From assembly GCF_019649055.1 (NCBI RefSeq), contig NW_026570242.1, positions 930,001 to 994,000 on the forward strand: DNA of 64,000 nt, in the 5' to 3' direction. The DNA comes from Paramacrobiotus metropolitanus. Lineage: Eukaryota; Tardigrada; Eutardigrada; Parachela; Macrobiotidae. Below, in pieces: positions 25,503-64,000 of the stretch. The notes under the pieces were generated by a model. That model worked only from the letters and a program-made list of their open reading frames with translations, had not been told where the DNA came from and did not search any database. The position numbers were made by a program, and so were the translations under genes. How positions within the stretch are numbered: the stretch's first letter is position 1; the number at the start of each line of letters is the position of its first letter.

Positions 25503-28500
25503 TCATGCGACTCGATGATGCGGATTGCGCGTAATGTATTGCATATCTTCGAGCGGCACCCATTCAAGGTTAGCTGAGGCTTCGACTGGAAGAGGGTACA
25601 AATCCTGCCTCATGCGTTCTTTCATCTCTTCTGTTACATTTCGCCGGTGCATCTTTCGTATAGCCACGGCACCTTGCGAACGGTCTAAAATGATGGTACC
25701 GCTCAGGCGTTCCAGATTGAGGCCGCAGCATTCGTAAAATCTATTCGTCTCCGGAAGGACCTGCCGTAATGTATCGAAAACTGGCAGACAAAAATCCCGT
25801 AAAAACTCCACCTACAAAATAAGAGAAAAATTTTTGTGTGAAATATTGCAATCGACAGGTATAGTACTTAATAGATGTTCGCTAAGTACAGTATGTATAT
25901 TTATTACCTCTAACCGGTGCAGCTCAAGTGGGTCGTCTGGCAAATCCCAACGTTGACAAAATTCGGCTCCATTATCTTGAAATTCGCCGGTAATGCTATA
26001 ATATTCTTCCAGTGCGCACTGAACAATTTCTTGATACAGCTCAAAAGAGCGACAAACAAAGTGCAGGGAGGCGGCGGCTACAATAAACTCTTTTAGGTGT
26101 TGCCGGAAATCGGGATTCTTAAAATTGGGCAGTCCAAATTTGATGCTGCTCCGCAGTGCAGCACTCCGTAGAAGTAAACCTGGTAACTGTGTCGCACTGA
26201 CGCAAGACCTGCTGTTTTCCAACAGTTTTCGCCATCGCTTGTCTTTATAATTCGAAAAAATGTTTGTTGACGGGTTCTGCAAATATCGTTTCTTTCATTA
26301 CAGGGTTTACGCTAAAATTCGTGAACCAGAAATTCTTACCCACAATACAACTGACGGGTAATAAACGGAGTTGTTATTCGGTGTCGTAGTCCCGAATACA
26401 TACATCAAACCTCTGGCCGGATCGCATCCTTCCGTCAATGTGGCATTGTACCAAAAATGATCGACACCGTGGCATAAAGCCGCCACGAGCATTGTCAACT
26501 TCTCATCGTCGCTGAAAAGGTCACCGGTTTGTTGTACAATGGCATACACCGATTGCAGCGTTGCAAAAGCATTCTTCCAATCTTTGAATCGCGTACGAAA
26601 ATGAGCGTTGCGGATCGTCTCGATGAAGTCAAACACCATCTTCACTTTAACACTCGACTCCGTCAACATATCAAAAATGAAGGTCATGGAAAGGCTAACG
26701 CTGTCGCTCAGATGATCAATAAAGAAAAACGTTGGCTCAAGCATATCGCGAGTGATTTCAGCAAACGGTGGCGGCGGCTTGATCACGTCTACGGGCATCC
26801 ATGCCCTTTCGGTGCGGTGATATTGCCGTTTTCTGGCGTAAGCCAGTTTCGACCGTTGTAAGTTAATAAGATGTTCGTGTTTATTGGCATGAAAACGATA
26901 CCATGCAAGCAAAATGCCGACAGCTGGAAACACGCTGTTTAAATGTAACATATCAATGTCCTGATCCGAAAAGCTGGAAGAACTCCTCTTATTCAGTACC
27001 TCCACCATTCCGTACGGCTCATTGTTAATAACGAATGGAACACAGACTTGAGACTCAGTCTTGTTAGAGAGAATGCGGTCAATTTCGGAGAAGAAGTGTT
27101 TATTGTCCTGTGTGGCAACTGACGCATAGGTCCGACGGTGGCGAAAAGTACAGCCAACAATTCCGCGATCGACTGACATTCTACAACATACAACTATACA
27201 TAAATCAAGCATGCATAGATACAAATATAGATATTTGAATGAAGCGGTAGTGTCTGGTTAATACTGTGATAATTATGAATCGAAATAGAGTATACAAACT
27301 GTAAATCAACAGGCCCGATGTCTGTACTCTAGCTGCATTACTCGAGATTCATGATTATTATCATTAAAAGTATTTCGACGACTTACCGAATATCATATCC
27401 TCGGCGGTAAGATGGGCGACCGCTGATTGGATCGATCAGACCCGTACCCAGATGAAAAGGAACCAAATGTCGCTCCGCCCGCAAAGACTCCGTCAGAGTA
27501 TTAACTAGAAATGAGCTCGATCGGTCGGCATCAGTCAAAATTTTCACCAACATTAAGGTATGGTGGAGAAATTCCTCGGTAGAGGCTTCCTTGAGCTGCA
27601 GTATTGACTGCATTTCTCTTCTCATTTTTTCCTGCACTTTCCGCTCCTCGTTACGAACACCGGTAAAATAACGGTACCGCGTCAAAAAGGAAACATAAGT
27701 GAATATCGCTTCACATTCGTTTTCCGAAAACACTGGTTTGTTTGAATTCCTGATGAACCCCAGAATACCGATAATACGACCATCATGGATGCCGACGGGT
27801 ATCAACATTGCAGAGTGAGCATTCTCGGAAATATTTGGTAGAAACCGACATCCTAATGCCAGATACGACTGCAAGTTTACAACGCGCCGCCAGGTTTGAT
27901 CGATCAGTGTGCGACAAAGTATATCACTCTCCACACGGTAATCCAAAACCAACTCGAACATATTTGGATCTTTTGTGAGAGTTCCTCTGCGCAACATGCT
28001 GAAATTCAAGTGCGATTTAGACGCAGGAAGATTGGAGCTAGGGACCGTATGCAGAGCATTTGCCGCCGATAGGAGACCGTGGGAGTTTCTGTCCGACATC
28101 TACGATTTCCGAACTGTATGTGCAAAAGCAAATAAATGACCCCCGACAACAGAATGCATGACGCACGACATACGGCTTAAAACTCACGTCTAAAGTGGAG
28201 TGTTCTGTCCTCATGGCATGCAGCGGTTCCAACCCATACTGTAGACTGTCAGGAATCGCGCGGACATAACTGGGCGACGGTCTTCTGGGTGGATATTGCT
28301 CCAGCGTAACCAGCGGTCCATCAATTTTTTTAACAGTGTAAAACACGACGGTGTCGGCAAAGAGAACATCTTTCTGCTTTTTAGCATAATTGAATATTTC
28401 TTTATTTAACTCGGATAAGTTTTCGATGGAGAAGTCCTTATCATCGTTCCATACAGGCGGCGTTGTGACCATCACACTGTGTGGAGGAAGATCGTAAATG

Positions 28501-43642: not shown

Positions 43643-51910
<8,268 letters not shown>

Positions 51911-53270: not shown

Positions 53271-53601
53271 ATGGGCAAACATTCCAGGGGCAGTTTTGGT
53301 GGTTGCGCTTCGTGGTCATACACTCACTTGTCCCTTGCCCGCAGTTTTGCGCATATGCACCGAGTTTTTGATTACAGTAATTTGATCAGAAATTCGTAGT
53401 TTTCCACTCGCTTCCACCGAGCAGACGATGCGTTTTCGTCTTCTGCTCATGTACGAAAGTGTGCCGAAAATTTTGAAATGCTTAAAAATAATTGAGGGGT
53501 ACAAAAGTCTCATTATACAGTAGATCCAATCCAAACGATCCGATCGATCTTTTCCAAATTTTGCAAGCAAACGTATAACTATGAGCAGCAGGTAGTACGT
53601 A

Positions 53602-54155
53602 CAATGGACTTCAAAATTTTGTTACACTCACAAAACGCGCGCAACCAGCTATTTACCTGTACTCAATCAGCCAAATTCCGGGCTGGCCATCGGCCTGTTG
53701 AGTTCAAACACTTGCACCTCACGCATTTCCCAGCAAAAACCACCAATATCTCAAACCGAAGAAAAAATTTTTATGAATTTTGATACCAAACAAGTTATGC
53801 AGGGTTTGACAGAAAATCGACGCATCTAAAGTTTCTCGTAGACAAAGCATAGCATTTGAATCCACGGTTTGGTTTCAGTTTTCACACAGAAAACGTATGC
53901 TCTGTCTACGAGAAACTTTAGATGCGTTGGTTTTCTGTCAGATCCCATAAAAACTAACTTGTTTCGTATCAAAATTCATAAAATTTTTTTCTCTTTCGTT
54001 TGAGATATCGGTGGATGGTTTTCGTTGGAAAATGCGCAAACAGCAAGTGTTCAATTACTGCGCGTTTCCAGTTTATTGGTCATTTGGTCTTGGCCATTTA
54101 TTTCTATTGGTCATTCGGTCCCGGACCGAATGTAACAAAATTTTGAAGTCCATTG
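53602..54155. mobile_element. 554-bp foldback MITE with TA target site
   Basis: Inverted arms of about 260 bp start CAATGGACTTCAAAATTTTG and end with the exact complement, flanked by TA on both sides (53600-53601, 54156-54157), as in Tc1/mariner-type non-autonomous elements. The inner arm parts GAGAAACTTTAGATGCG and CGCATCTAAAGTTTCTC show that the fold extends to a loop of about 60 bp near 53850-53895. No transposase frame. Confidence 0.75.
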
Positions 54156-54157
54156 TA

Positions 54158-55217: not shown

Positions 55218-58200
55218 ATGGCATTCGATTATCATGAGAAATTGTTCGTTTTCGTCTTCATACTATCCTTGGGGTGTGTTGCTTATTCAGCTAATTATAC
55301 ATTTTTTGTCGTTTCTACCAGTACATTTCTTGCAGCTTGCAATGATTTGAAAACGTACTACACCAGCGCTAAGCTGAAGTACGGTGAATATAACAATATA
55401 ACTTGCCTGTCATACGAAATTGCTGATCAGCTTAAGCTTGCTAATACCACCAATGCCTCTACCATAGCTTTGAAAACTACCACTGGAGCTAATCTGACAG
55501 CAGCTGAAGTAGGACAAACTGTATTGTTTCTGATGCGAACACCACTAGTTCCTCAAGAGGAAACGCTGCTACAGTCATCCTTTCGCCAATTCCCGGTTAT
55601 TGTTAATTGTATTTTGATTGGTTACAATATTCCGGAACTTACTGCTAAAGGTGAAGTATTCCGATTAACTCAAGACAATTTGGTGGGAATTTTCAGCGGA
55701 ACAATAAAATTCTGGAATGACACAAGGCTCTTAGTAAATAATACTGCGCTTCGTGCACCTAACGGAAGTTCTATTCTGCCCGGGAAGCGCATAACATTGG
55801 GATTTCGTCTGGATCGCTATCTTTCAACGTGGGTTCTGACCAGAACCTTGTCGTCCATATCTCCTGGCTGGGCAAAGACGTACGGGAATATTCAAGACGG
55901 CACCGTGTTTTCTACAACGGTCAAAGGTCCCAAGACGTGGCTGACCAATAAGATGTTGGGTATCAGCTTGTATGGCTTTTTGAAGGACACTCCTTATTCG
56001 ATGATCATAGCACCACAGGAGGATGTCGAAAAGTATGGGTTTGATGTGGTGAGAGTACAGAACAGTCAAGGGAAGTTCACCAAATGCACTGAGCTTACGG
56101 TAAGTGATCCGCCGAAGCGTGAGCTGCAAAAGAATGCGTTACCGGTTACCAATCGCTGTAGATAAATGGAGGCATCGAAGCTGCATCCAGTTCCTACGCT
56201 GCCCGCGTCCGTAACGGCTCCATGGAGAATTTGAACGGAACGACCACTTATCCGCTGCTGGGTTTTTCATATGTCGGACTATCACTTACCAAACTTGGCC
56301 AACGGGACCAGCTGTTTGACTGCACCATCCTGTCCGGAAGCCTTCGGTTTCTCAATTGGATTCTCGATGCATCTAACCAAGAGTCCCAGCAGATCCTCAC
56401 AAACAACTACTATATTCGATGCCCAGCTGCGTGGTATCCGGATTTATGGAGCCTGCAACAAGATCTCCGTTGTGGAGATCGAAAACAGCTGGTACAGCGC
56501 TATCTGGATTCGATTCAGTCGACAGAAGATACTTATGAGCTTCTACATTCAACTACGTTTTGGGCGTATCTTATATGTGGACTACTCGCCGGCCTGGCCG
56601 TTGCTGCATATGTTGGGAAACAAGCATACATATATCTGAACCGGCTTCGTAGAGAAAACATGGAACAGTATGCTATTAGCAGTAAAATGATACGTATTAC
56701 GCCATCCGTTTACTCACCGATGGATCGTTTCAAAGGTGTCGTTGCGTCACGGAAAGTCGTGGACCGGTAATGCAAATATGGGTACCTATTTTGATATTTA
56801 AGCGCCACTTATCGCTTTTGTTTATTAAGCTTTGGTAGTAGCAATCATAGACTTCAAAAGGTAGTTTCGAGATACTTGTAATTGGCAACTTTGATGTGTC
56901 CTATAATATGAATAATTTGCTCTTAGATACGTGCTGTGCAGGTTCTGACAGTTCTCATTGCACGAACAGCTTATTTAATCAAATGACGTTTTTCAGGTAT
57001 ATACCTACCGCTTCTCTGCAATGTTTGGCAACCGGAACCTGGGGTGAATATGAAGTTTTCCTGCGGCCGTGCAGTCTAATGCTGCACAGGTTAAATCATC
57101 GAACCAGAATGCAGATGTTAAAGCTCATGGAGATATCAAGCCAGAAAAATATCGTGGAATTTTATGGAATGACCGAAGTTCCCGGTGGCAGATGCTTGGT
57201 GTGCAACTTTTGTGAGCCGAATGTTCTAAAGTAAAGGTCACGTCATCGAACATTCTTATAAATCTCTCAACAAATCGTTAAATTGTTATTTTTATATTGT
57301 TATACCGGTTGGCATATTATTAATTTTTAAGAAGTTAGTCACTTAGCCAGCGCGAATACTAATTCAACGTTAATACACATGCCAGATATTAGAATACACG
57401 AGCTATTTTTGGTTTATTTATGTAGGCCCGTTTGGTGACTTGCGGACGCTGGTTATTTCGAAGAAACACATTTTCAGCATGAACACGAAGTTTTCGTTAA
57501 GCGGAGATATTGCTGAAGGTATGGAATACCTGCATGATTGCGACGTTGTTCATGGAAATCTGCGCAGCTGCGCTGTATATATCGAAGCAAATTGGACGGC
57601 AAGGATTTCTGATTTGTATGCATAAGTGTTTGTAAAGATCCAACTATCTACGTTAATTTTATCCAAACAATAACAATAATATGTTAGTTTTGTTATTATA
57701 GCGAGTACGATACCTTGCACCAAGTCCAAGGGTCATTCCATCCAACCGTAGCTCAGCTCAAGCAAAAACTGAATTTGTATCAGCAAACATCACTGTACCC
57801 TTGGCTGTACTGGACTGCACCAGAAATTCTGCGGCAGGGAATAACAGGACGGAAATACCACCGGAAAAAAGTGCGGATATTTATAGGTACATGTAAAATT
57901 ATTGTTTCATTAGAAACTGATACACCGGCATGTGGCACAACTTTTCTGTACAGTACAACTTCACTTCGCTGTATCTATATATATAACAAATGACAGTATT
58001 GTGTTTCAATATGTAGACGTTTTTGTACCGGTACGTATTTGCGCTTACAACAACGAAAGTGATTTGATAGCTTCGGCATCGTCTGCTCTGAAATCTTCGC
58101 CATGGAACCGGCGTACCAAAAGTACCAAGAACTGCCTTACAAGCTAACTCCAGCCCAGATCCTCAATGGGATATTGTCGGCCGATATGCGCCCTCGAGAA

Positions 58201-60609
58201 GACTGGAAGACCACCGCCACTCCAAAGTGTGTGCTGCGCGTTATGGAGCACTGCTGGCAAGAAAACGCTTCACGTCGACCGTCTTTCGCCACACTGCGCA
58301 AACTACTCCGCTCCGTGCGTTCACTGCGGCGTCATGTGGCTGATAAAATCATGATCGCGGCCGAAAAAACCGCCGAAGCCGTGAAGAGTCGATGCGACAC
58401 AGCCAGCGATCGGCTCAACCGTTTTGATCAGGAATTCCATAAGTATTCCAAAATTCTTGTTCCTCCAGCATATTGGCGCTCCATCTACAAGCAGAAATTG
58501 TACATGTCAATGACGCGGCACAAGCTTGGAATTGTGTTCTATTGCAACTTAGTGGAGTATGGAAATTTAATTAACGAGCAGACAACCAGCCGGGCTTTCG
58601 AATGCATAAACCTGCTGCACGAAGGTTTTCAGAATTTGATAGACAAAGGTAGTATACTGTAATTAATATACTAATTATTGTAATTTTAGTGCCCGACTTG
58701 ATATAGGTGGCCGTGTCTATCGTGTGTACCGCAACGGTACAGGATTTGTTGCTCTGGGGAATGTTCCCTATGGCGTTAAAGAGGATCCAATAGATTCCAT
58801 CGCTCATTTGGCATTCGACTTTCTCACATGGGCATGGCGAGTCAAACTACCAGGACACCTTATGGACGGCTTTCAGCTGCAGATTGGAATTCATAGTGGG
58901 CCGGTAAGTGACTACGACGAGAGACATACGCAAAAAACTGCTGGATCTAAACCAAGCTTCGCTAATTTCTTGTCCAGCTCACAGCCGGTACGTTAAAGCA
59001 TAGTACAAACCACTTCATTCCACTTGGTCCCGTTCAGAAAGAAGCGTGGGATATTGTTCGGTCTTCTGCTCCATGCCGGATCCTGATTAGTGAAGATTTC
59101 CATCAAAATCTTCGCCAGTTGGCGCAGATTTTTATTAAATATCGGATTGTGCCTAATACTGGCCGTGTTTTTGGATACTCGAAGAAGACATATTGGCTCG
59201 TCGGCATGAATTACTATCGAGGCCAGAGCCTGTTAGATGACATGTTTCTCTTAGATCCGGATAACCTTGAGGCAGCCGCCAAACTTGCCGCCAAAAAAGA
59301 AGCTCAGACTAAAGATAGGAAAGGGAATTTGAGGAACGAGCTGGTTAAAGTAGTGTCCGCCCTGCCCTTCGATTATCAGGCTTTAACAGCCGGTGGCGCG
59401 CAGTACGTGGTTGATGTAAAGGAGAAGGAAAAGCGGCGGTCGCAGGCATACGACCGAAAATCGTTTGTGCACCATGCTGGTCCGTTACTTTTGCCATCGA
59501 TGCAATTCGATGAGATCTTCGAGCGGAAGTCCCACCTGGATATGGAGCCGTCGGAATTAATGGTGCACCCAACGGTGACATCTGGGAATCATCCACGATA
59601 TGTTGCCGGTCCCAAAAAGGTGCACTCAGTAGAAGACACTGATCAGCAACATGCTGGTCGGCATTCACCGGAAACAGAGAAGGCGTTGAAACGGTTGCGA
59701 GCCATAAAGAAAAAAGAGATAACAGATATGGAGCACAAACGGCAGGATGAGGCCGCCCGTACACATTTGCACCACGAGTTATTAGAAGCCACCGGATCTG
59801 ATGAACGTCTGCAGGAAGACTTACAGGATGTGAATCAAGGGGAACCACCCGAAAGCAAAGCAGACGAGAAAACCGAATACTACCAAAGATACTCAGACGT
59901 GCATAGACCCAACCAAAGACATAGACATTATTACGATGATGAGGACGAAGAGTACGAAGAAGCAGAGTCCGCGGAAGAAGGTCAGTAACACTTTAATTAA
60001 ATAAGTGCCGCAAAAATTCTGGTTTCAAGGTGCCATATAATGTCAGGAAACACTACTACGTAATTAGTAATCACATAATGCGTGCTCTTCATATATGTAT
60101 ATTGTATAATAATTATTGGTTACTACTGGTATATTACAGTATACGGCCAATCTGACGAATACTTTGCTGGGGAAAATTATGAAGATGATCAAATATATTA
60201 CGATCCGGAAGTGGTAACCGGCAGTCTACAGTTTATGCGAGAAAGCGAGATTTTGTCAGGTAAGAGCGCTGAAAAGGCGTTTTCGTTTAGTATTACCAAG
60301 ATTTGCTGGGTTACGTTTTTAGTAAAATGCATAATACGTTTAAATAACGTTTTAATAATTTATGTAAAGACTGCCTTTTTTCCAGACCAAATGGAAAACC
60401 ATCTGGCTCAAATGGCACAGGTCGATTTTGAGCAGCAGCAGGTCGCTTATGATACCACGTATTCGCAAACGAGTATACCGGTTACTGATGCACATCAGCC
60501 GAATGAAACAATAATCGATGTGGTGCCCGATGAGAAGGTCAAGCGCAAGAAAAAGAAATCAAAAAAGCGTCGCAAGCATAAGGAAGCCACAAAGGATGAG
60601 GATGAGTAA
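55218..60609 (+). CDS. Receptor guanylyl-cyclase-like protein with PstS-like ectodomain and degenerate cyclase
   Basis: Ten exons: 55218-56099, 56162-56766, 56997-57211, 57426-57615, 57702-57886, 58071-58648, 58707-58903, 58978-59980, 60140-60259, 60386-60609; about 1400 codons if one frame slip at 57865-57870 is allowed. Order: signal peptide (LFVFVFILSLGCVAYS); a type II periplasmic-binding-protein fold of the phosphate-binding kind (QFPVIVNCILIGYNIPEL, LVGIFSGTIKFWND, FLNWILDASNQ); one membrane span (FWAYLICGLLAGLAVAAYVG); kinase-homology domain with HGNL, WTAPEIL and ADIYSFGIVCSEIF; dimerisation helix; cyclase domain; about 300 charged C-terminal residues ending in Lys/Glu runs. In the cyclase, DIVGF is NLVEY and the GDAY loop is NGTGF, so both metal Asp are absent. 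It is probably a surface sensor without cyclase activity. Compare standard receptor cyclases, whose ectodomain is a type I fold. Confidence 0.8.
57865..57870 (+). other. Apparent one-base frame slip in an A6 run
   Basis: Before the A6 run the frame encodes LYWTAPEILRQ and onward; after it the conserved ADIYSFGIV of the kinase-homology domain is in the -1 frame. No GT lies between the two conserved blocks before the run, so an intron cannot explain it. One missing A in the assembly, a real mutation, or programmed slippage are the options. Confidence 0.65.
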
Positions 60610-61139
60610 AGCGCCACTCTTATCATTCCTAGCTCATGCAGACCTGTGCTTAGTTTCGTTGTTTTTCACCTTTCTTTACAACAACCCAGGGAAAACTGGG
60701 TGAGATATTTCGAAGTTTTGAACATATTTTTTTATGTATAATCTTGTCATATTATCTTTGATATTAGTGTTTATTGACTACCATATTTAAACTGTAATGC
60801 TATTTGCTGTTACATAGTAAATGCATCGAATAGGTTGCACTTTGTCGTTCATTTGATGGTGTTTTGGGAAACACATAACAATTATATAAATCTTGAAAAG
60901 TGCAATATCAAAGTCGCCTCCTATCGGTAGAATCTGTGGATTTTGGCATTTCGTGCCAAACGCCAGGTTTCTTTTAGACTTATGTTTCGTAGACAACATA
61001 GATTCTAGGCAACTCTCGTCAGCTTCCGCGAGATCATGGAGGCACTACCACATAATATAGCGCTAAGCTCAAAATTTCTTCCGTTTCGCTTCTTACTCAT
61101 GACAATAACATTATGGCTTCTTACTAATCAATGTAGAAA
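60610..61139. other. Intergenic stretch
   Basis: About 530 bp between two plus-strand genes: 3' UTR of the receptor and promoter of the protease. Nothing else seen. Confidence 0.4.
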
Positions 61140-64000
61140 ATGTTGAACACCATTGCGCTGAATGTCCACTTCAGCTTGGATAGCGTTATACTTATTTATA
61201 TAGTATTATTACGATTTAGTGCAGTACTCACGGATGAATTCCCTTCTAATATTCCACAAGCAAACGTTATACTCCTGACTAGCAGCAACCCTGTTAAAAA
61301 CCTACAATCACCAAACTATCCAAAAGCATATTCCAGCAGGTCCAGTACCTCCTATTGGATATCTGGCGGAGGGAGTCCCATACGGGTATGTTTGCATCTA
61401 TCTTGTTGCAAAGTTTTCACACAACTGCTGCCACACTGGAAGCAAAATCGCTGTCCAGTGTTTACTTCTTTATAGATACGTTCGAAACAATTTTCTCTTA
61501 ATCCAGCGAACAAAGGCCAGTGCGATGCCGATAGGCTTACTTTCTGGGATGCTAAGTGTAAGTTTACAGCCTACGCTGCCATACTTTAACCGGGAGTCGC
61601 AAATACTTTTTTATTAATGTAGATCCGTATTTCTCTCTGGGCACCTTTTGTGGCGCAGTAACGCTGGATGTTTTGTCGTACAGTGATAATGTGGTACGCA
61701 AAGTTGTGGATAACGATGCGGAAGTGCGTTCATCCGACAGAATGAATTACTTCATCGTATGTTCTGATAGGCGGTTGCATTTACTGCAAACAGTCCAAGA
61801 GATTATTCTGGCTTCGATTTGGAGGTCTCTAGTATGTACACAACTAGGAATTGCAGGCAACCTTTAGCTTGCATCTGCACAATCTAGCGCAAAGCTGTTT
61901 AACAAAATTATTGTACATGTACATCGTACGGAGTACCTTCACTGGTAGTGGCGTATATATTTACGTACAGTACTATATCGGTATTTCGCCTTTCGAAACA
62001 GACGGGATACTCGAATACCCAGTACTTTGTTTTATCATTCAAGTACATAGCACATGGCCGTTGGAAGTGACCAAACCCCCAAATAGCAGTTGCCAGTTTT
62101 ATTGTACCTAGTACTTACGGTATATTTCCGAAAGTCAAACAAAAAAATTTGTTAACAACTGTGGTGGATGCGTTAGTGGCTTTTGTATCAAATGGACCAT
62201 TCAGAGCAAACGGAATATGTACGAGTACTTTTTTATTCAAAGAAGTTTTTTATTATAGGAAAATTAATATTCTATACAGTTCAGTTAAATACGAGTATTC
62301 GCAACCAACGCAATTGTAGCCAAATGATGGCACCTGCAAAAGTGCTTTCGTATAACAGAATGTCGACTTCTGAACTTTGCCTATTGAAATGCTAATGAGA
62401 GGAATTGAAAACTGTATTAATTTTGATACCTTCTTCTAGGATCTCAATGCGGAAAAGCGGATTTCCTATGTCCCTCAAAAAAGGACAAATGTATTCCCAG
62501 TGACGCTGTCTGCAACGGTAGCGTCGCTTCAAAAACATGCAGTAAATGAGATATTCGATACTGAAAATAATCTAAACATATGCTTTCGGGATTGCGACAG
62601 GTGTGGCAGATTGTCCACAAAAGGAAGACGAAATTTGCTCGCTAGACTGTGGAATACCCCAAACTCCAATAGGTCCAGTACAGCAGGCTAATAACGATCG
62701 CATCATTGGTGGTACGCAGGTATTTGAGCACTGCTGGGACTATTCCGTATTCACGGGTACTAGAACTTACCGAAATCGTTTCTGCACTGAATGTAATAGG
62801 TGAAGAGTCGGTCATGGCCATGGCAAGTTCGGATGCAGTTTAAACAATTCATATGCGGGGGATCTCTCGTAAGTTGTGGGAAAGTTATACTGAGCGTGCA
62901 ACGAATACCGGAAACTGCTATTTGTTTGCCAGGTGGCTCCCCAATGGATTGTGTCAGCCGCACACTGTTGCTTCGAGGATAAAGAGAAATACCGGTATCC
63001 GTAACTGCTGCGGATTGTTTTTGCGAAACAATTACGCTACTCTTCCGCCCTAAACTTGTCTGATCTTTGTATACGCATGCTTGAAGGCCAGAAGATATCA
63101 CAGTGCAGTTAAAACCTGAATTATGCGGTTCTTCGCAAAGCATACGAGTCGAGGTTAAAGAAGTCATCCCACATCCTGATTATAAAGGGGAGCCCGCCAA
63201 CGAATATGATTACTGTCTTCTCGTTTTGAAAGCGGTAAACAAGCTTAGCGCACCTGATGGAAAATGCCTGAAACTGACGAAAGACTGCTTGTATACGGAT
63301 GCTTTGTTGTGCACTTTCTAGCCCATTCAGTTCTCGGATGACCTTAAGCCGGTCTGTTTGCCTCGAGCAAACGACATCGCTCAGATCAGTCAGGGATGCT
63401 TTACAGCCGGGTGCGGCTCTACATTGCAGTACAACGCCGACGTTTCGAAACCACCTTCACAAATATCCAAGCTGTTGTTGCAAATTCCGTTGTCGATTGT
63501 GGAAAAATCTACATGTTCAAGGAGCATCGCAATATCACCAGAGACCATCTGCGCTTACACTCCCGGGAAAGACTCGTAAGTGGACGTAATCTGAACACGC
63601 TTTAAGTGCCTGAAAACGGAGAATTAACGGAATTTTCATTTGATGTCGAGCCACAAACAACATAAAGTTACTCGTTGCGGTTACCTGTGACTGTATCCCG
63701 TTCGGCCATTTGCGCCGTATGCTGATAATTTTTAAAATCGTTGGTCACTCAGGTCATCATTACAATTTCATCCTGTGTTTTCGTAGATGCCAAGGAGATA
63801 GTGGTGGTCCACTGATCTGTCCACGGCAGGACAATCCAAACAGCACTCAGTGGGTGCTGCACGGCGTTACTTCGGTTGGATTGTAAGCTCAAAAGGGCTT
63901 ACCAACAAGTTTGTTTAACAAAATACAGTCACCGGCATTTTTAAATAAGTTTTCAATAAAAGCGGTCTAAACTTGCCGGACAGGTGGTTTGTATGAAGCT
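61140..64000 (+). CDS. CUB-LDLa-trypsin serine protease (3' end outside the window)
   Basis: Supported exons: 61140-61385, 61476-61557, 61623-61756, 62440-62517, 62601-62719, 62800-62868, 62933-62994, 63087-63234, 63322-63575, 63787-63882; one or more CUB exons between 61757 and 62439 are unresolved. A signal sequence or anchor (SVILIYIVLLRFSAVL) precedes a CUB domain (NLQSPNYPKAYS, KGQCDADRLTFWD, LGTFCGAV), an LDLa module (CGKADFLCPSKKDKCIPSD, then VADCPQKEDEIC), the activation site DRIIGGTQ, and a chymotrypsin-fold domain (SWPWQVRMQ, WIVSAAHCC, YDYCLLVL, KDSCQGDSGGPL). His, Asp and Ser of the triad are present, and Asp six residues before the Ser predicts trypsin-like cleavage after Arg/Lys. 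The activation Arg and CUB/LDLa modules suggest a secreted or membrane-linked zymogen of the matriptase/ovochymase type. The last exon, with the end of the protease fold, lies beyond the right edge. Confidence 0.85.

Follow-up and report, generated by a model that had tools for sequence, protein, structure and literature searches.

PstS-type ectodomains on receptor guanylyl cyclases of Paramacrobiotus metropolitanus: a diverged, probably non-catalytic gene and its paralogues

Receptor guanylyl cyclases are a textbook class of animal receptors with type I ectodomains that sense peptides or ions, usually of the ANF_receptor type. The 64,000-nucleotide stretch of tardigrade DNA analysed here as a whole (the window) contains a gene in which a domain homologous to bacterial PstS, of type II, stands in that place. 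It is likely, in our view, that such genes form a family of receptor guanylyl cyclases with PstS ectodomains, whose intact members probably sense phosphate and to which the window gene belongs as a diverged and probably non-catalytic pseudo-subunit. An earlier note on this DNA had called such a fusion undescribed, and no earlier account of a PstS-receptor cyclase fusion was found in the titles and abstract beginnings of the open-access papers listed.

The window gene and its PstS-type ectodomain

The window gene lies at 55218-60609 on the forward strand and consists of 10 exons (Table 1), of which all nine introns are GT-AG and the frames are open apart from one change in exon 5. Its product is ordered as signal peptide, PstS-type domain, one transmembrane (TM) stretch, kinase-homology domain, cyclase-like domain and charged tail. 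This is the part order of receptor guanylyl cyclases and is also found in the paralogue A1, with signal and TM assigned by hydropathy only. The hydrophobic start covers aa 9-27, and the PstS-like ectodomain carries ten N-glycosylation sequons. Exons 1 and 2 are open and joined by a 62-base GT-AG intron, at the positions where the earlier note had placed them. Pfam scans gave PK_Tyr_Ser-Thr at 63.7 bits (aa 529-633) for the N-terminal piece of the protein and Guanylate_cyc at 42.4 bits for the C-terminal piece. Exon 6 by itself matched just six kinase C-lobe fragments in the PDB (E 0.0025-0.0066).

Table 1. Features of the window gene (positions in the window) and loci of the family
Feature	Position	Strand	Content	Basis
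Exon 1	55218-56099	+	Signal peptide and most of PstS-like domain, aa 1-294	Open frame, TIGR00975, PDB PstS matches, fold search with predicted model
RQFPVIVN motif	55584-55607	+	PstS motif in exon 1	
DNLVGIFSGTIKFWND	55674-55721	+	Best conserved PstS helix-loop	Alignment with 5 bacterial PstS rows
RLDRYLST	55806-55829	+	Counterpart of PstS RADGSGTS phosphate loop	Alignment to E. coli PstS
Exon 2	56162-56766	+	Remainder of PstS C-lobe, TM helix (aa 427-445, 56558-56614), juxtamembrane	
Exon 3	56997-57211	+	Kinase-homology domain begins	PK_Tyr_Ser-Thr match, GT-AG intron
Exon 4	57426-57615	+	Kinase-homology domain; kinase HRD loop replaced by HGNLRS	
Exon 5	57702-57886	+	Kinase-homology domain (TAPEIL); frame change at or near A-run 57865-57870	
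Exon 6	58071-58648	+	Kinase-homology end, linker, cyclase-like start (GIVFYCNLVEY, without metal Asp)	
Exon 7	58707-58903	+	Cyclase-like domain (RVYRNGTGF, without metal Asp)	
Exon 8	58978-59980	+	Cyclase-like end (KTYWLVG) and long charged tail	
Exon 9	60140-60259	+	Tail	Splice sites, open frame
Exon 10	60386-60609	+	Lysine-rich end KKKKSKKRRKHK, then stop	
PstS-cyclase loci	C71 (A1, A2, B1, B2), C4, C39, window (C22)		Seven loci	TIGR00975

The PstS-like ectodomain that the earlier note had claimed was recovered by several searches. Exon 1 matched TIGR00975, the PstS model, over aa 120-291 (3.7e-14, 52.5 bits), and a phmmer search of the PDB gave a best value of 1.1e-5, with PstS making up 17 of the 19 distinct sequences at E<=1. 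When the 426-aa ectodomain was reversed, no NCBIfam match was obtained and the PDB returned only matches of E>=0.32, none of them PstS, so chance resemblance was rejected as the source of the match. The Pfam model PBP_like_2 reached 24 bits, which is below its cut-off of 27. Since the equivalog cut-off of TIGR00975 is 205 bits and lies above both exon 1 and A1 (1.4e-52, 178.7 bits), the two appear to be clear PstS homologues, not transport equivalogs. By these domain matches and those of A1, the PstS domains of the window gene and A1 are fused to receptor parts instead of belonging to a Pst ABC transporter. A fold search with a predicted model of the ectodomain also returned PstS, not the type I ANF-receptor fold; this model had a mean pLDDT of 54.3, with a small confident part, and was built on an alignment that included bacterial PstS rows. 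A single-sequence AF2 control gave a pLDDT of 31 and no usable model. ANF_receptor was absent by hmmscan from both the N-terminal piece of the window protein and A1, and none of the 86 ANF_receptor matches listed for the genome lies at a PstS-cyclase locus, by which a type I ectodomain in the window gene was rejected. The PstS motifs named in the earlier note are present, and only the start of RLDRYLST, given there as 55803, has to be moved. The residues G, I, F, G, T, I, W and D of DNLVGIFSGTIKFWND are invariant between the window gene and the five bacterial rows.

Several other elements were observed in and beside the window. A palindromic, MITE-like element of approximately 560 bases (53600-54157), with nested inverted arms that are 78-97% complementary, lies about 1 kb upstream of the window gene. 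Further upstream, a 51-base tandem repeat in 13 copies (48615-49277) has long ORFs on both strands; a (TA) run at 49645-49911 comes next. Downstream, 61137-61867 (+) could be the start of the next gene, where the CUB-like text LQSPNYPKAY was noticed by eye; two ORFs tried in this region gave no Pfam match. A gene resembling cyclic-nucleotide phosphodiesterases at 25812-28099 (-) has PDEase_I exons (31.7 and 25.8 bits), and its GAF matches are weak, below the cut-off. The PDEase metal motif usually has HD, and this gene reads CHGVDHFWYN, so that judging by its residues it may be a pseudo-enzyme as well. On the same contig there is a further cyclase a short way upstream of the window (C22:927024, L036).

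A family of PstS-cyclase genes and its graded residue losses

Four queries, namely PBP_like_2, TIGR00975, the window exon and A1, were run against the genome (169.8 Mb, 533 contigs) and led to the same loci; the family counts are lower bounds, as only the best candidates were scored. TIGR00975 gave 16 matches (all 16 candidates scored), every one of them within the seven loci of Table 1, and no free-standing PstS gene was found among these matches. An eighth locus, C22b (L035), on the contig of the window, gave no TIGR00975 match and was noticed from a weak match (E=0.054) adjoining a cyclase match. With 48% identity in the main segment of the kinase domain it is, by this measure, the nearest paralogue of the window gene; its ectodomain matches those of the window gene and C4 at a genome-wide E of 0.018-0.035 and that of C39 at 0.0033, all of which are weak. 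Four genes are located at C71:558000-652000 (L016-L019), where neighbouring genes A and B are paired twice, approximately 78 kb apart. The DNA of the two pairs is 95% and 92% identical over the main stretch, and extra first-exon fragments, IPVHYIHSGGATLPIEIYKV, occur between A and B in each pair.

The A1 model reads cleanly, with 8 exons and 1034 aa. The alignment of its ectodomain to PstS of the PDB covers residues 9-317 of 346 (E=2.8e-31), and phosphate-binding proteins account for 20 of the 21 PDB sequences at E<=0.01. PBP_like_2 (82.8 bits), PK_Tyr_Ser-Thr (83.1 bits) and Guanylate_cyc (211.9 bits) are all above their cut-offs, and the best PDB match of the cyclase domain is ANP receptor 1 (E=2.4e-75). 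A single 996-base exon of A1 encodes the PstS C-lobe, the TM stretch and the kinase N-lobe. C4 and C39 also have these three parts on one exon, and C22b has them within one ORF. The fusion is thus evident at the DNA level, and it is for this reason that we read the window gene as encoding one protein. The first exon of C4 was not found, its model being otherwise complete, and the C39 model (L021) has a GC-AG intron after exon 2.

The phosphate site of E. coli PstS, which we take to comprise T10, F11, S38, D56, R135, D137, S139, G140 and T141, was compared across A1, B2, C4, C39 and the window gene. Two of the nine residues, R135 and D137, are kept in the window gene: its RLDRYLST loop has lost Ser139, Gly140 and Thr141, and the Asp56 of GASDAP is replaced by Arg, in agreement with the altered pocket that the earlier note had described. 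PDB titles among the fold matches list PstS mutants of Asp56 and Asp137. Eight of the nine are present in A1 and B2, where F11 is Leu and Met, respectively. C4 keeps five of the seven residues aligned (Ser38 and Ser139 are changed), and C39 keeps two of nine (D56 and G140). Since paralogues retain the phosphate pocket together with the enzyme residues, the suggestion that the ligand may no longer be phosphate fits the window copy and not the family, of which A1 and B2 keep the pocket.

A similar gradation was observed for the cyclase domain. Class III cyclases take two metal-binding Asp from one chain and the Asn and Arg from the other. A1 has all four of these residues (FSDIVGFT, VETIGDAY and NTASRM), and A1-type sister genes, which retain both pocket and enzyme residues, could be phosphate sensors. 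C4 keeps both Asp, and its Asn/Arg stretch reads IQMTIL; C39 keeps the second Asp (TSGDD) and has lost the first Asp, the Asn and the Arg. The window gene has none of the four, and its product should therefore be unable to complete a catalytic site, either alone or with an active partner. By analogy with ODR-1/DAF-11, described as an obligate heterodimer with essential residues from each chain (PMC5225109), C4 could serve as a half-site donor in heterodimers.

Constraint, origin and alternative readings

Small frame changes occur in four of the eight loci (the window gene, A2, B1 and B2). In the window gene the frame changes once, at or near the A-run in exon 5, where C39 and C22b are in a single frame. 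These four loci could be pseudogenes, or the changes could be assembly errors; the Paramacrobiotus sp. TYO assembly is described as built from Nanopore and Illumina reads (PMC8277472), and single-base frame changes could stem from long-read errors that were left in. A1 and A2 gave dN/dS = 0.067 over 698 codons, with exon 4 omitted because A2 changes frame there, and their exons 1-3, which encode the signal and PstS domain (209 codons), differ by 4 synonymous and no amino-acid changes. B1 and B2 gave dN/dS = 0.46 on 15 changes in exons 1-3 (206 codons), the remaining exons being left out for frame changes. Between the window gene and C22b, codon positions 1, 2 and 3 differ in 47, 38 and 70% of 694 codons, respectively, a third-position bias that shows signs of protein-level constraint.

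In the ectodomain tree, A1, B2, C4, C39 and the window gene fall on one side and six bacterial PstS on the other with support of 100/99; the branches of C39 and the window gene are long, and the tree program raised a warning that these two may be joined falsely. Six bacterial PstS loci were found with two short patterns in genome contigs, the closest being cyanobacterial at 31% identity; the sixth of them, L030, was left out of this tree. On viral contigs, 70 stretches matched a pattern and none was a relative; 90 records of a phage collection matched, of which the eight listed are 28-32% identical. All six introns of the C4 model are common to A1 in column and phase. C39 and the window gene have four of these introns (columns 335, 637, 700 and 1055), and a fifth near 778, beside placeholders, is probably present in them as well. 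The cyclase-domain tree, built from 11 rows with two long branches and with seven other-cyclase rows that are stitched and partial, supported only the C39-window pair and one pair of other cyclases, being otherwise mostly unresolved with A1 and C4 unplaced; C22b was left out because its stitched row was too short. As A1 was grouped with neither C4 nor C39 and the window gene, this tree gives no support to one fusion event. The genome has a very large cyclase repertoire: scoring 150 of 849 candidates gave at least 200 matches to Guanylate_cyc. Given the abundance of these and of ANF_receptor matches, cyclases seem to have expanded greatly, with the PstS members as a side branch.

In favour of a PstS resemblance due to chance, bacterial contamination or a chimeric assembly, the window match is by itself modest in Pfam. 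We regard this reading as practically excluded: seven clear loci lie on four contigs, introns fall within the PstS domain, the fusion is contained in single exons of paralogues, and none of the bacterial PstS found exceeds 31% identity. By these observations it is, in our view, already refuted, and contamination and chimerism were rejected. That the window gene is instead a decaying pseudogene of the family whose function is gone would fit the frame change in exon 5 and the lost catalytic and pocket residues; it seems unlikely, as the gene retains ten exons separated by GT-AG introns, with frames that are open elsewhere, and its third-position bias against C22b is strong. Its sole break falls at an A-run or close to it, and the figures of the assembly resemble those of the Nanopore and Illumina build described in PMC8277472. 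Moreover, C39 reads cleanly over 1521 codons yet shows most of the same losses.

Two further readings concern the ligand. The intact members might bind another oxyanion (arsenate, phosphonate or sulfate) or a phospho-metabolite in place of inorganic phosphate, the binding of which is only predicted; the Leu of A1 and Met of B2 at Phe11 and the changes of Ser38 and Ser139 in C4 point that way. We find this doubtful, because eight of the nine site residues, among them Asp56 and those of the RADGSGT loop, are retained in A1 and B2. It is similarly improbable, and slightly more so, that no member senses a small ligand and that the PstS domain serves as a structural or peptide-binding clamp. Such a role would be consistent with the loss of most of the pocket in the window gene and C39, and the ectodomain is reported to be dispensable in some nematode receptor cyclases (PMC5225109), whereas the phosphate loop is kept in A1 and its exons 1-3 are unchanged in amino acids relative to A2, against just 4 synonymous changes. 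We therefore keep to phosphate-sensing receptor cyclases as the probable nature of the intact members, with the window gene as a diverged pseudo-subunit.

Proposed function and comparison with known systems

From the retained and lost residues we infer the following scheme, in which phosphate as the ligand, the coupling of clamp to cyclase, the pairing of chains and the damping role are all proposed. The two-lobed PstS-type domain takes the place of the usual ANF-receptor ectodomain, and extracellular inorganic phosphate would close its clamp in A1 and its near-copies on C71, in the parts that read. The clamp movement would be passed through the single TM helix and the kinase-homology domain, so that the dimer turns and the cGMP output of the cyclase dimer changes. 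The window protein would bind another ligand or none, and may damp, sequester or localise the active paralogues. The fullest version is tentative, with the chances somewhat against it: that animals grafted a PstS clamp onto a natriuretic-type cyclase to give a direct receptor for extracellular phosphate, in which the C71 genes turn inorganic phosphate into cGMP, C4 contributes a half-site to heterodimers, and tuning is done by phosphate-blind pseudo-subunits, namely the window gene with C39 and perhaps C22b. If true, this would be a natural phosphate-to-cGMP switch. Since the ectodomain has a known bacterial ligand and pocket, a single binding assay could deorphanise such a receptor. The paralogues, which differ in how many pocket and enzyme residues they have lost, offer a ready series on receptor enzymes becoming pseudo-receptors.

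Bacterial PstS (TIGR00975; PDB 1ixh, 2z22) shares with the family the fold, a near full-length alignment to A1 and the phosphate-loop residues of A1 and B2. It is a free transport protein, whereas in the family the PstS domain is joined to TM, kinase-homology and cyclase domains, its scores lie below the equivalog cut-off, and the window copy is without the pocket. The soluble DING or human phosphate-binding protein (PDB 2v3q, 4m1v), whose bacterial origin is debated, differs in that the PstS domain described here lies in an intron-bearing animal locus. Natriuretic-peptide-type receptor cyclases (NPR1, GC-C and the C. elegans GCYs) have the same type-1 membrane layout of ectodomain, TM, kinase-homology and cyclase domains, and ANP receptor 1 is the closest of the PDB chains to the A1 cyclase; the family differs from NPR1-type cyclases in its type II PstS ectodomain, and the window cyclase in its lack of catalytic residues. 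The C. elegans GCYs include receptor cyclases described as direct ion sensors, and the complementing subunits ODR-1 and DAF-11 are a model for C4, the window copy being without both catalytic halves; a PstS-type ectodomain is not mentioned in the portions of the source on which we draw (PMC5225109). PBP_like_2 has been reported on a chytrid class C (7tm_3) receptor (PMC3251606) and on 7tm3 proteins of Plasmodiophora (PMC4815078). These receptors, whose added domain is PBP_like_2 or another bacterial solute-binding domain, likewise place a bacterial-type type II domain on a eukaryotic receptor, but as described there they are seven-TM and non-animal, and not receptor cyclases (PMC3251606, PMC4815078). 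How animals sense extracellular phosphate is described as still being worked out (PMC6795806, PMC10104895). For the calcium-sensing receptor, likewise a membrane receptor of animals, a response to extracellular phosphate is reported, phosphate being there a non-competitive antagonist; it differs from the PstS-cyclase family in being a GPCR (PMC6795806).
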